This document shows, in pieces, positions 15,552 through 21,949 of a stretch of DNA of 64,000 bases. The DNA lies in contig CALJAM010000009.1 in NCBI GenBank assembly GCA_938027685.1, forward strand, positions 62,001-126,000, read 5' to 3'. Origin of the DNA: an uncultured Bryobacteraceae bacterium. Its GTDB lineage: Bacteria; Acidobacteriota; Terriglobia; Bryobacterales; Bryobacteraceae. Under the pieces are notes generated by a model. The model made no database searches and was not told where the DNA came from. It was given only the letters and a program-made list of their open reading frames with translations. The stretch's first letter is position 1. Each line of letters starts with the position of its first letter. Both the position numbers and the translations under genes were made by a program.

Positions 15552-15627
15552 TGGAGCGGGAGACGGGACTCGAACCCGCGACATCGACCTTGGCAAGGTC
15601 GCACTCTACCAACTGAGTTACTCCCGC
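15552..15627 (-). tRNA. tRNA-Gly (GCC anticodon)
   Basis: On the minus strand a complete 76-base cloverleaf can be drawn. The acceptor stem GCGGGAG pairs with CTCCCGC, the D arm reads ACTC-AGTTGGTA-GAGT, the anticodon stem CGACC/GGTCG holds the loop TTGCCAA with anticodon GCC, and the T arm has the invariant TTCGAGT loop. The discriminator base is T and CCA is encoded in the genome. A TTGACA/CAAAAT promoter lies just upstream at 15639-15668. It stands alone, with no tRNA neighbour. Confidence 0.97.
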
Positions 15628-16696: not shown

Positions 16697-16749
16697 CCGG
16701 CCCGTCGCCGCTGTAGTAGTATTCTGGGTGAAACCAGGCGGAGGGAAGG

Positions 16750-17322
16750 ATGGTCGCAGCATCTCAGTTGCGCGCCGGAATGGCGATTCGCTACGAAGGG
16801 CAACTTTACCGCGTGCTGATCGCCGAGTATCATCCGGGGCAGGGGAAGATGGGTGGCGTCACCCACACTCGGCTCAAGAATCTGACCACGGGCAGCATCT
16901 GGGAGCACAGCTTCCGTGCCGATCTGAAGCTGGAAGACCTGCCCATTGAGAAGCAGCCCATGGACTTTCTGTACTCGGACGGAGAGCAATGCCACTTCAT
17001 GAACCCGGAGACTTACGAACAGCTGGCGGTCCCCACGGCCGTGATCGGCGAGCAGGCCAGGCTGCTGCAACCGGAGATGCGGGTGGCGGTGGAGTTCGTC
17101 GAGGGGCAGCCAGTGAACGTTATCCTGCCCGAGATCCTCGAAGTCCGTGTGGCCGACACGGCGCCGCCCTCTCACCAGCAGACCGATAGCGTCTGGAAGC
17201 CGGCACGGCTGGAGAACGGACTGGAAATCATGGTGCCCCAGTTCATCAAGACGGGTGACGTCATCCGGCTCGATGTGGCAGAGCTGAAATACATGGATCG
17301 CGCCAAGGGCGCCAAAGGTTGA
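16750..17322 (+). CDS. efp: Elongation factor P with Gln at the modification-loop tip
   Basis: EF-P enters the ribosomal E site and relieves stalling at polyproline stretches. The 190-residue protein has the three usual beta domains: KOW-like N-terminus, the MDFLYSDGEQCHFMNPETYEQL middle domain, and the C-terminal VPQFIKTGDVIRLD. In E. coli the domain I loop reads PGKG with Lys34 lysylated. Here it reads PGQG followed by KMGG, so Gln31 occupies the modified position, Lys33 comes two residues later, and the loop up to the next TG is two residues longer. EpmA, EpmB and EarP genes are not seen. A strong GGAGGGAAGG precedes the ATG. It leads a tight set with DUF3467 and a glycosyltransferase. Confidence 0.95.
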   Translation: MVAASQLRAGMAIRYEGQLYRVLIAEYHPGQGKMGGVTHTRLKNLTTGSIWEHSFRADLKLEDLPIEKQPMDFLYSDGEQCHFMNPETYEQLAVPTAVIGEQARLLQPEMRVAVEFVEGQPVNVILPEILEVRVADTAPPSHQQTDSVWKPARLENGLEIMVPQFIKTGDVIRLDVAELKYMDRAKGAKG

Positions 17323-17338: not shown

Positions 17339-17632
17339 ATGTCCTTTCCCCAGAATCCGCCCCGCATCGAGCTGGTCAAGCGGCCCGACTATCGCGAGGA
17401 GTACGCCAACAGCGTGCAGGTCCGCGCCAACCTGTGGGACTTCTTTCTGATTTTCGGGCGCGTGGACCAGACTTCGCCCGACACCGTGCTCATCCACAAC
17501 TTCCAGGGCATTTACGTCAGCCCGCAGCAGGCCAAGGCGCTGCTCAACGTGCTCCAGCAGCACATCAGCCAGTACGAAGCGACCTTCGGCGAAATCCATC
17601 TGGAACCGCAGACCAGCGGGGTCATCCAGTAA
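17339..17632 (+). CDS. DUF3467 protein
   Basis: A 97-residue cytoplasmic protein matching the DUF3467 outline. The SVQVRANLWDFFLIFGR segment is followed by a middle strand with FQGIYVSPQQAKALLNVL, then QHISQYEATFGEI. The function of this family is unknown. It starts 16 bases after efp and ends three bases before the glycosyltransferase start, so the three are probably one transcript. Residue VQ at the tail and the absence of Cys or membrane segments suggest a small soluble partner protein. An AGG-rich GGAGGC precedes the ATG. Confidence 0.85.
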   Translation: MSFPQNPPRIELVKRPDYREEYANSVQVRANLWDFFLIFGRVDQTSPDTVLIHNFQGIYVSPQQAKALLNVLQQHISQYEATFGEIHLEPQTSGVIQ

Positions 17633-17635
17633 CCG

Positions 17636-19168
17636 TTGCGTAGAGAACGTGAGCCGGCGGCGCCCCCACCCAGCGCACGCACAGGCCCGCGCCCATTGCT
17701 GATCAGCGGCGCGGCCTTCACGCTGATCATCCTGCTCATTCATCTGCCATACCTGGATCTGCCGCTTTTCTGGGACGAAATGGGACAATTCGTCCCCTCG
17801 GCTCTGGACCTCTGGCGTGAGGGGCTGTGGATCCCCAGGTCCACGCAACCCAACGTGCATCCGCCGGGATTGTCGGTGCTGCTTGCCGCAGTGTGGTCGC
17901 TCACCGGCTACTCGATCCCCGCCACGCGCATCGCGATGCTGGTGGTGGCGGGGCTGACGGCGACGGGCACGTTCCTGCTGGCCATCCGGCTGTGCCGCGG
18001 ATTGCCCGGCGCGCCGGCTTTCTGCGCCGTAGCGCTGCTCATGCTTTCGCCGCTGTTCTACACGCAGGCCATGCTGGCGCAGCTCGATCTGCCCGCGGCG
18101 CTCTGCACGGCGTGGGCGCTCGTCGAGTTCCTGGAAGGTCGCTACCGCCGCGCCGCGCTCGTCTGCGCCCTGCTGGTCTTTTTCAAGGAGACGGGAGCGG
18201 TCGTGCCGGTGGTGCAGGGCGCGTGGTTGTGGCGCGAGGGCCGCAGGCGGGAGGCGACGTGGTTCGCCGTACCGCTGCTGGTACTGGGCGGGTGGCTGGT
18301 CGCGCTCGCTGCCGGGACGGGACACTGGTTGGGCAACCCGGAGTTCGAGCGCTACAACCTTTTCTACCCGCTGCACCCGGTCAGGCTCCTGCTGGCCTTC
18401 CTGCGGCGTTTCTTTTTTCTGTTTGTAGATCAGTTCCACTTCATCGGCTGGTTGGGCATACTCCGGGCATGGCGCAGACACCGTCTGTACGCCGAGCGCC
18501 CCTGGCGGGTCACGGCTTGCGTGGCCGCGGCGCAGGCGGTCACCGTCACGGTGCTGGGCGGGGCGACGCTGGAGCGCTATCTGTTGCCGGTTCTGCCGCT
18601 GATGTACATCGCCATGGCGGCGGGCTGGTCTCTCTATCCGGCCAAGCGGCGTCTCGGGATCGTGACGGCGGCCCTGGCGGGCATGGTCCTCTGTCTGTTC
18701 TGGTCGCGGCCGCTGCCCACGCCCATTGAAAACAATCTTGTCATGATTCGTTTCATTCGGCTGCAACGGCAGGCGGCGCAGTATTTGGAACAGCGGGCGG
18801 CGGGCCGCGTGGTGGCGACGGCCTGGCCCTTATCGGAGGCGCTGCGCTCGCCGGATTTCGGCTACGTGCACGAAGGTCTGCGGGTCCGCGAGATTCCCTC
18901 TTTCGACCCGAGTACGTTGGCGACACTCACCGTACAGGACTTCCACGTGCTGGTAGTCTACCGGCGGGACTGGAATCCTGGCCCCTTCTACGACTGGTTC
19001 CCCGTGCTCTCCCGGCTGCGGACCCGTTACTACGGCTTCCGGGGCGAAGCCCAACCTGAGCAGGCTGCACGCCTACTGGGCTTACAGATCTCCGCCCGCT
19101 TCTCGGACGGTGCTCTGTGGCTCGCCGTGTTGGAAAAGCCCGATCGGGCCCGGTTCAGGCCCCGATAA
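17636..19168 (+). CDS. GT-C (GT39-like) membrane glycosyltransferase
   Basis: A membrane protein of up to 510 residues with about ten hydrophobic segments. The first extracytoplasmic loop carries FWDEMGQFVPSALDLW, which holds the acidic residues conserved in lipid-phosphate-sugar dependent GT-C transferases, followed by NVHPPGLSVLLAAVW, also typical of the PMT/ArnT class. Such enzymes transfer a sugar from a polyprenyl-phosphate donor to protein or glycolipid at the outer face of the inner membrane. The start is unsure: TTG at 17636 gives a spacing of three bases from the DUF3467 stop, and a later TTG is possible. The 3' end overlaps the convergent prepilin peptidase by 14 bases. Confidence 0.85.
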   Translation: MRREREPAAPPPSARTGPRPLLISGAAFTLIILLIHLPYLDLPLFWDEMGQFVPSALDLWREGLWIPRSTQPNVHPPGLSVLLAAVWSLTGYSIPATRIAMLVVAGLTATGTFLLAIRLCRGLPGAPAFCAVALLMLSPLFYTQAMLAQLDLPAALCTAWALVEFLEGRYRRAALVCALLVFFKETGAVVPVVQGAWLWREGRRREATWFAVPLLVLGGWLVALAAGTGHWLGNPEFERYNLFYPLHPVRLLLAFLRRFFFLFVDQFHFIGWLGILRAWRRHRLYAERPWRVTACVAAAQAVTVTVLGGATLERYLLPVLPLMYIAMAAGWSLYPAKRRLGIVTAALAGMVLCLFWSRPLPTPIENNLVMIRFIRLQRQAAQYLEQRAAGRVVATAWPLSEALRSPDFGYVHEGLRVREIPSFDPSTLATLTVQDFHVLVVYRRDWNPGPFYDWFPVLSRLRTRYYGFRGEAQPEQAARLLGLQISARFSDGALWLAVLEKPDRARFRPR

Positions 19169-19720: not shown

Positions 19721-21949
19721 CTACGGAACGCCGGCGGCTGCCCGCACTACCAGGGTTTTGGCTACCGTCTGATTGTCGTATTCGTCGGTGACGCGAACGG
19801 CTACGGCGAACTCGCGGCCTCCCGTTGCGGGCAAGAGCACGTCGTAGTCCTCGTCAGACGAGTCCGCGATGCGGTCGATCGGGTTCAAGGGAAGCCAGTC
19901 GCCGCCGTTGATTGAGCATTCCGCCAGGCTGATGGTGCTCGCGGCATCTCGGGTGCGAAAGCGGAGCCGGATGCCCCCCTGCTCCATCGCGGCCTCCAGA
20001 CGCACGATCTCGGGGCCGGTATTGTCGATAAGGAACGGCTCGCTGACCAGCTCGGCCGTGAGCGCCTCGCCGACGGAGTTGTCCGGTTCGTCAGAAGCGA
20101 TCACGCGGATGACATATTCGCCGTCCGCAAAGGCCGTGGTATCCCAACTGAGGTGTTTCTCCCGCACCTTGTCGCGCAACAGCTTCCATTCGGATTCACG
20201 GACTCCGCGGATTTCGACGCGATAGATGAGCTCGTCTCCGTTTTCGTCCGTGGCCGCCCAGCGTACGGTGCGGAAGCCGGGCGCGTAGTTGAGCGTGAGG
20301 CTGGCTGAATCGGCGCCGGCAGCCGGAGTGGAGGGCCGCGGGCGTTGACCGATGGGTGGCAGCGTGAGAGTCTGGGAGGCCGTGAGGGAAAGAGAGGGCG
20401 GCGGCACGCGATAATTGGCCGGCGCAACCTCGATCTGGCTGACCTGAGGTGCGACGTTCCTTTGCCGCCAGGCGATCTCGACGGCGCGCAATTCGGGCGA
20501 GCGGCCGTCAGGCCCGGCCCGCAACACTGCCCGCCATTGGAGGAATCGCGCCGGCGGTGAGCTCACAAGACCGGAAGAGCCACGGATCGCGTCCGAGTAC
20601 GGGCTCCAGTCCTGCTGCGGGCGTTCTAGGTTCCCGCTGCGTGTGGAGATCAGGATCTGTCCGCCGTTGGCGGCGCCACGCCACTTTAGGCGCCCCCAAT
20701 AGGAAAACATCCCGGCATCGAGAGGCTCGCTTTCGACGCTCCCTTCGGGTTCGAGCTCCGGTCCGATGCGGTAAACCTGGCCGATGTTGCCGGTTGCGGC
20801 GTAGATCGCGCCTCCGCGCCCGGCGAGCAGCCGCGTCACCTGGGTCGATGGCAGCGTCACAAGCGCAGTCCATGCATACGGGGAATCGACCCGGTAGACG
20901 GTTCCCTTGTTGCCAGTGGCAAGCAGCGGGCGGCCCTGGGAGTCGAAGGCGATGGCATAGACGATCTCCTGCGGGTGGCTCCAGACCTTGCGTGGGAAGC
21001 CGTCCGGGTCGATGCGATAGATCTCGCTTCCGCCGGTGATCTGTGCGGCGACCGTAGTCAGCGGCGCCAGAGGCGCGGGGGCGGGTTGTGGACGCGCCTG
21101 TTGCTGTGGCGAGAGTGTGGTGGGCAACGGGCTGGGCTGCGGGGCGGGCGCGGGGGCCGGGGCCGGCGGTGGGGCAGGCGCGACGGGCTGCTTCAGACCC
21201 ACGCCGGCGGCATAGATCGCTCCCCCGGGGCCGATCGCGACCGCAGTGATCTCGCGGCGAGGCGCCTGGAATAAAACAAAACCCTCGCCTTTTGGATCGA
21301 TGCGCAGGATGAGGCCCCCGGGCTCGGTACCTACGAGGAGATGGCCCTGGCCGTCCACGGCAAGCGAGCGCGCGTGGGTGTCCGAGAGCTTGTAGAAGAG
21401 CGATCCCGCGCCGCCCGGCAGGACGCGGTGGATCTCTCCGCGGTCGCCGGTGGCCACGTAGAGGCGGCCCTCGCGATCGAAGACGATGTCCCAAATGTAT
21501 TTGGCCTTGGGGTCGTAATAGGTCTCGACGCGGCCGTCCGGGGAGATGCGGTAGACACGCCCGTCAGGCGATGTCGCGGCGTACAGCCGTCCCTGCGGAT
21601 CGAAGGCCAGCGCGTGCACTTCCAGCGCGTCGAGTTCCGCCAGCACTCGCGGCTCTCCCGCGGGCGTGATCACATGGATACGGGCGCCCGAAGCGCCGGG
21701 CCCGCCTCCTGCCGCGTATAGGTTGCCCTGCCGGTCCTCGGCCAGAGCCCAGAGGTACGTGCTCGATGAATCGAGCAGCAGGCGCACTGCAGGCGCCAGC
21801 GTCACTGTGCCGTCACTGGCAAGCGAAACTCTGTCCGATCGGGCCCGCTCGTAGTCCGCGTATTGTTTGTGCGTCCACCAGCGCGTTTCGACCGCCGTCA
21901 GGGCGGGTGCAATAAGGGTCACGGTGGCGGCAAACAGGGGTCGGAGCAC
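19721..21949 (-). CDS. Secreted beta-propeller protein with Ig/FN3-like C-terminus
   Basis: A 742-residue exported protein starting at GTG, with a signal peptide (LRPLFAATVTLIAPALTAVE). Residues about 60-440 form NHL/YVTN-like propeller blades with repeats such as AFDPQGRLYAATSPDGRVYRISPDG, cut here by a proline-rich linker of PAP and QPSP repeats near residue 255-295. The C-terminal half has fibronectin-like strands (VRWAATDENGDELIYRVEIRG, AFADGEYVIRVIASDEPDNS). The GTG start shares its first base with the last base of the stop (TAGTG) of the S55 peptidase upstream. Such proteins often bind or sense surface partners; no enzyme function is apparent. Confidence 0.82.
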   Translation of the reverse strand: MLRPLFAATVTLIAPALTAVETRWWTHKQYADYERARSDRVSLASDGTVTLAPAVRLLLDSSSTYLWALAEDRQGNLYAAGGGPGASGARIHVITPAGEPRVLAELDALEVHALAFDPQGRLYAATSPDGRVYRISPDGRVETYYDPKAKYIWDIVFDREGRLYVATGDRGEIHRVLPGGAGSLFYKLSDTHARSLAVDGQGHLLVGTEPGGLILRIDPKGEGFVLFQAPRREITAVAIGPGGAIYAAGVGLKQPVAPAPPPAPAPAPAPQPSPLPTTLSPQQQARPQPAPAPLAPLTTVAAQITGGSEIYRIDPDGFPRKVWSHPQEIVYAIAFDSQGRPLLATGNKGTVYRVDSPYAWTALVTLPSTQVTRLLAGRGGAIYAATGNIGQVYRIGPELEPEGSVESEPLDAGMFSYWGRLKWRGAANGGQILISTRSGNLERPQQDWSPYSDAIRGSSGLVSSPPARFLQWRAVLRAGPDGRSPELRAVEIAWRQRNVAPQVSQIEVAPANYRVPPPSLSLTASQTLTLPPIGQRPRPSTPAAGADSASLTLNYAPGFRTVRWAATDENGDELIYRVEIRGVRESEWKLLRDKVREKHLSWDTTAFADGEYVIRVIASDEPDNSVGEALTAELVSEPFLIDNTGPEIVRLEAAMEQGGIRLRFRTRDAASTISLAECSINGGDWLPLNPIDRIADSSDEDYDVLLPATGGREFAVAVRVTDEYDNQTVAKTLVVRAAAGVP

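Follow-up and report, generated by a model that had tools for sequence, protein, structure and literature searches.

For its activity, EF-P is thought to depend on being modified or, failing that, on having a special loop. The stretch of DNA analyzed here, 64,000 nucleotides from an uncultured Bryobacteraceae bacterium (hereafter, the window), encodes an EF-P whose β3-β4 loop reads PGQGKMGG. The question raised by this locus is which residue of such a loop occupies the tip, and whether a protein so built would need to be modified at all. The features that bear on the matter are collected in Table 1.

Table 1. Features of the window considered in this work, with the evidence for each assignment
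Feature	Coordinates	Strand	Evidence
tRNA-Gly (gcc) gene	15552-15627	-	
GGAGG, Shine-Dalgarno-like, 5 nt upstream of the ATG	16740..16744	+	sequence reading
Accessory EF-P paralogue (here "type B"), 190 aa	16750..17322	+	Pfam, NCBI models, AlphaFold, Foldseek
β3-β4 loop PGQGKMGG, residues 29-36 (8 residues)	16834..16857	+	DSSP on AlphaFold model
Gln31 codon, branch-specific, predicted not to be the tip	16840..16842	+	position-31 survey of the family
Lys33 codon, predicted tip residue, column of E. coli Lys34	16846..16848	+	alignment and family survey
Domain III loop I region TAPPSHQQTDSVW, without a GDT-type motif	17158..17196	+	alignment
DUF3467 protein, 16 nt downstream of the EF-P stop codon	17339..17632	+	PF11950, 68.5 bits

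The EF-P gene is a complete reading frame starting with ATG, and the loop, with its Gln31 and Lys33, lies exactly where the preliminary description placed it, within an intact protein of 190 residues. The protein comprises KOW-like, OB and C-terminal EF-P domains, whose Pfam matches all exceed their cut-offs (PF08207, 57 bits; PF01132, 68 bits; PF09285, 56 bits). It passed the broader NCBI model for EF-P (NF001810, 179.1 bits vs a cut-off of 161) and stayed below the cut-off of the equivalog model efp (TIGR00038, 173.2 vs 185.8 bits). Scores against two EfpL/YeiP models were 109.7 bits (cut-off 216) and 103.9 bits (cut-off 264). The AlphaFold model had a pLDDT of 91.9; its top Foldseek match was 1ueb (E = 3.9e-19), and the comparison with Corynebacterium EF-P (6s8z) gave TM values of 0.86/0.89.

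The nearest relative in public genomes is a Bryobacteraceae protein with 90% identity. Between the two genes the frame is kept, dN/dS is about 0.05, and the differences at codon positions 1, 2 and 3 number 16, 2 and 79, implying that the loop is neither a sequencing nor a chance artefact. Strong purifying selection acts on the gene.

Two EF-P genes are present in the genome, which comprises 3.93 Mb and is 96.7% complete. The second one, on contig 27 (L001:1123-1680, minus strand), is the housekeeping EF-P, with a PGNKRG tip and Asn in the tip column. In what follows, we designate as type A the housekeeping EF-Ps with an Asn tip (PGN[LKW]R), as type B the EF-P of the window, and as type C those with an EfpL-like PTARGG loop.

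EF-P matches were found in all 61 genomes of the order Bryobacterales, and a type-A gene could be read in 59. The housekeeping tips across the order were NLR (40 genomes), NKR (17) and KGR (2), so that the Asn tip is nearly universal. Type B was present in 13 of the 61 genomes, all belonging to the family of the window (41 of the sampled genomes); type C occurred in 17, and A, B and C were found together in two. In these 61 genomes, type A was present in every case in which a complete gene was readable alongside type B or type C, and in our sample of the phylum each genome with a type-B-like gene had at least one further EF-P match. Given the second EF-P in the genome and this co-occurrence in other genomes, we conclude that the window gene is an accessory EF-P, a paralogue working beside the housekeeping one.

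A tree inferred with the loop columns removed joined type B to its deeper relatives in one clade (97/88) and placed E. coli EfpL apart from it, but on a very long branch. A pattern scan of 84,980 species, which covers the PGQG type only, returned such relatives solely from Acidobacteriota records or from ones that seem to be mislabelled Acidobacteriota, and the accessory clade is so far known only from this phylum. Two records, labelled "Arcobacter sp." (L120) and "Acidimicrobiia" (L128), contain Bryobacterales-type EF-P genes (68% and 63% identity, respectively) and are probably mislabelled MAGs.

The type-C EF-Ps (L059-L063, L066-L072, L074, L075 and L080-L082), with their PTARGG loops, fit the published definition of EfpL, i.e., a long loop and an Arg tip. 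The one that we scored reached 141 bits against the NCBI EfpL model, whose cut-off is 216.

When DSSP was applied to the AlphaFold model of the window EF-P, strands were assigned to residues 18-28 and 37-44, enclosing a loop at 29-36. The model of a type-A Asn-tip EF-P of the phylum had strands at 18-28 and 36-43 and a seven-residue loop (29-35), in the middle of which lies Asn32. Seven is also the length in E. coli EF-P (KPGKGQA), compared to nine in EfpL (SPTARGAAT) (PMC11611912). The window loop exceeds the canonical seven by one residue and falls one short of EfpL's nine; it had been described as two residues longer than in E. coli, but between the same strand anchors the count is 8 vs 7. 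This length was constant in all 69 members of the family formed by type B and its deeper relatives.

When 65 EF-Ps, among them those of E. coli (EF-P and EfpL), were aligned with L-INS-i, Lys33 fell in one column with E. coli Lys34, EfpL Arg33 and the Asn of type A. In a comparison of the two models, the counterpart of the tip in the window EF-P was Gly32 when counting from the left strand and Lys33 when counting from the right, and was never Gln31. Only three residues occurred at position 33 among the 69 family members, namely K (54), Q (9) and R (6), and at least 11 changes from one to another were counted on the tree that leaves out the loop columns. As judged from alignment and models, the apex residue is Lys33, not Gln31. 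Pro29, four residues before Lys33, varies within the clade. One close relative, encoded in a single MAG (L129:4001-4561), has Gln33 (PGQGQMGG), the sole such case in the PGQG branch, which may reflect an error in sequencing.

Could Lys33 carry one of the known modifications? The preliminary description had reported no EpmA, EpmB or EarP gene in the window, an observation that extends to the whole genome, at 96.7% completeness. No EpmA was found in this genome, the best match to the EpmA model being a lysyl-tRNA synthetase of full length, which scored 652 bits against the NCBI model for that enzyme, and EpmB/KamA had no match. EarP (PF10093) had no match in the 61 genomes of the order, a search set that included no EarP-positive control genome.

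The genome does contain a deoxyhypusine synthase (DHS)-like gene (G000:C34:48523-49401, L210; PF01916, 312 bits), the product of which is closest to the NCBIfam deoxyhypusine synthase PRK00805 (412 bits, just under the cut-off of 434). Lys33 might then be modified by an undescribed enzyme, for instance this DHS-like protein, to yield a hypusine-like tip: the tip residue is Lys in 54 of 69 family members, and DHS-like genes have been noted in bacteria whose EF-Ps have Lys or Asn tips (PMC6544042). We consider such a modification unlikely, however. Arg or Gln replaces the tip Lys in 15 of the 69 members, and both do so even within the closest branch. Within the order, just 3 of the 13 genomes with type B have a strong DHS-like gene, and of the 20 strong genes, 17 belong to genomes that lack type B; without co-occurrence, DHS was discarded as the modifier of the accessory EF-P. 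Furthermore, with Lys33 as the tip there is no Pro at position -2, which is typical of Lys-modified EF-Ps (PMC6544042). More generally, because the tip residue has changed between K, R and Q on at least 11 occasions, it is unlikely that the whole clade depends on a lysine-specific modification, although one could exist in some members.

We also considered DHS as a partner of the NKR tip of type A, a strong DHS-like gene being present in 16 of the 17 NKR genomes of the order vs 2 of the 40 NLR genomes. This candidate was rejected as well, because the independent switches were too few and the link failed across the phylum, the exceptions being Acidobacteriaceae NLR genomes with a strong DHS and one NKR genome (G074) with a weak one. 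In a further acidobacterium (G191, family f62), contig 9 carries a DHS-like gene (17532-18416) and, about 2.4 kb apart, an EF-P gene with a PGNWRG tip (20805-21362), a pairing that would be a starting point for asking whether DHS acts on EF-Ps with an Asn tip.

Domain III of the window EF-P is also unusual. Loop I of this domain in EF-P (G144-G148) contacts bases 1 and 2 of the E-site codon, D145 and T146 contributing side-chain contacts (PMC11611912). At the position of the GDT motif, the window EF-P reads SHQQTDSVW, and no G[DAQNE][TS] of any kind was present in this region in 66 of the 69 family members, while GDT or a near variant is kept in type A, type C, E. coli EF-P and EfpL. The loss of the motif suggests that the E-site codon is not read as it is by EF-P.

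Of the established classes, EfpL (YeiP) resembles type B in being accessory to a main EF-P, in having a lengthened β3-β4 loop and a basic tip, and probably in needing no known modification enzyme. EfpL has an extended loop with an Arg33 that mass spectrometry found unmodified, the R33K variant of the E. coli protein lost function, and loop extension has been described as a mark of EfpL only, in combination with an Arg tip (PMC11611912). EfpL differs, however, in its nine-residue loop (vs eight), in its Arg tip (vs Lys, Arg or Gln in the type-B clade) and in a Pro three residues before the tip, which the window EF-P lacks; the GDT-type motif is lost in type B, which in the tree groups with its deeper relatives, apart from the very long EfpL branch, and whose representative in the window scored far below the cut-offs of the EfpL models. 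Filing the window EF-P as an EfpL was accordingly rejected, since its loop length, the tip residue, the Pro position and the scores with the models all speak against it.

With the EF-Ps that EpmA converts to β-lysyl-Lys34, the window protein shares a Lys in the tip column, the same three domains and the same fold, but it differs from them in its eight-residue loop, in Gln31 instead of Pro two residues before the tip, in lacking the GDT motif, and in coming from a genome with neither EpmA nor EpmB. The EarP class (Arg-rhamnose) is similar in fold, and a few type-B relatives do have an Arg tip, whereas the window EF-P has Lys on a longer loop and no EarP match was found in the order genomes. The Bacillus-type EF-P, which carries 5-aminopentanol and has the SDR enzyme YmfI as its modifying enzyme, has a PGKG loop, unlike the window EF-P. 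Type A shares with type B the genome, the three domains and membership of the EF-P family, but has a seven-residue loop, an Asn tip, a conserved GAT/SAT motif in domain III and an order-wide presence. Ordinary EF-Ps with Asn, Gln, Met, Ser or Gly at the tip have been described (PMC11611912, PMC6544042).

The explanation that we favor, with moderate confidence, is that this paralogue serves Acidobacteriota as an accessory to the housekeeping EF-P, presenting a probably unmodified Lys33 at the apex of a longer loop. The one additional residue in the loop may allow the bare side chain to reach the CCA end with no need for β-lysine, rhamnose or aminopentanol, a mechanism modelled earlier for EfpL and its nine-residue loop. 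In domain III, the absence of the GDT motif would probably go with a range of stall contexts that is different or wider. By analogy, the window EF-P would bind the ribosome and probably work in an EfpL-like manner, though it is not an EfpL, without modification. Since EfpL R33K is non-functional in E. coli (PMC11611912), there is no certainty that an unmodified Lys would function on a longer loop. The preliminary description had left the choice between an unmodified factor and an undescribed modification at Lys33 or Gln31; the loop is indeed unusual, the known enzymes are missing genome-wide and the unmodified state is the likelier one, but Gln31 is rejected as the tip.

The gene downstream of that for EF-P encodes a DUF3467 protein, and such a gene adjoins the type-B EF-P at 10 of 52 related loci. 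The two are probably co-transcribed, and DUF3467 could be a partner of type B or a mere operon neighbor. When we looked across the loci of the clade for a conserved neighboring modification gene, none was found; only DUF3467 was shared, in near relatives. This pairing, the loss of the motif for the E-site codon, the patchy distribution (13 of 61 genomes) and the loose tip residue would also fit an accessory EF-P that has left polyproline rescue, either for another ribosomal job or to act as a brake on the ribosome. Such a departure seems rather improbable, given that the three domains, the fold and an apical side chain, basic or amide, have all been retained, and that EfpL is an accessory paralogue with an overlapping role at polyprolines (PMC11611912).

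The residue at position 31 is Gln in all 53 members of the PGQG branch, a set partly fetched with a pattern containing GQG (an unbiased profile search gives Gln31 in 13 of 13), and both a pairwise phmmer comparison and one MAFFT run placed PGQG on the PGKG of E. coli, i.e., Gln31 opposite Lys34. The reading put forward in the preliminary description, with Gln31 in the place of Lys34 and either unmodified or carrying a new Gln modification, is nevertheless very improbable: position 31 is G, T, S or V in 15 of the 16 deeper relatives (with tips such as AGGGK, AGGGQ, AGTAK, GGSGQ, SGVAQ and MGGGR, from about ten families of the phylum), yet position 33 is always K, R or Q; Gln31 is off the apex when counting from either strand; and among 1166 surveyed EF-Ps a Gln tip was never combined with a Pro at -2 (PMC6544042). 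An equivalence of Lys33 with E. coli Lys34, which counts against the Gln31 reading, is largely borne out by the L-INS-i alignment of the 65 EF-Ps.

Returning to the accessory EF-P with a bare Lys33, it may represent an undescribed, separate class, characterized by an eight-residue loop, an interchangeable Lys/Arg/Gln tip and the loss of the E-site motif, which would stimulate peptide-bond formation free of modification and with a context preference unlike those of EF-P and EfpL. This broader proposal is tentative, and we would put it somewhat short of an even chance. We found no description of an accessory clade with an eight-residue loop and a K/R/Q tip in the open-access literature.

Irrespective of its classification, the clade, whose tip changes between K, R and Q while its loop stays at an intermediate eight residues (between seven and nine), offers a natural test of whether modification can be replaced by loop length, and its loss of GDT provides a way to test the contribution of E-site codon reading. 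An accessory EF-P is not necessarily an EfpL, and the class of an EF-P is poorly predicted by its tip residue alone.

Elsewhere in the window, a plus-strand ORF ending in GDGTRTRDIDLGKVALYQLSYSRIR overlaps the tRNA-Gly (gcc) gene and is a spurious antisense reading of it.
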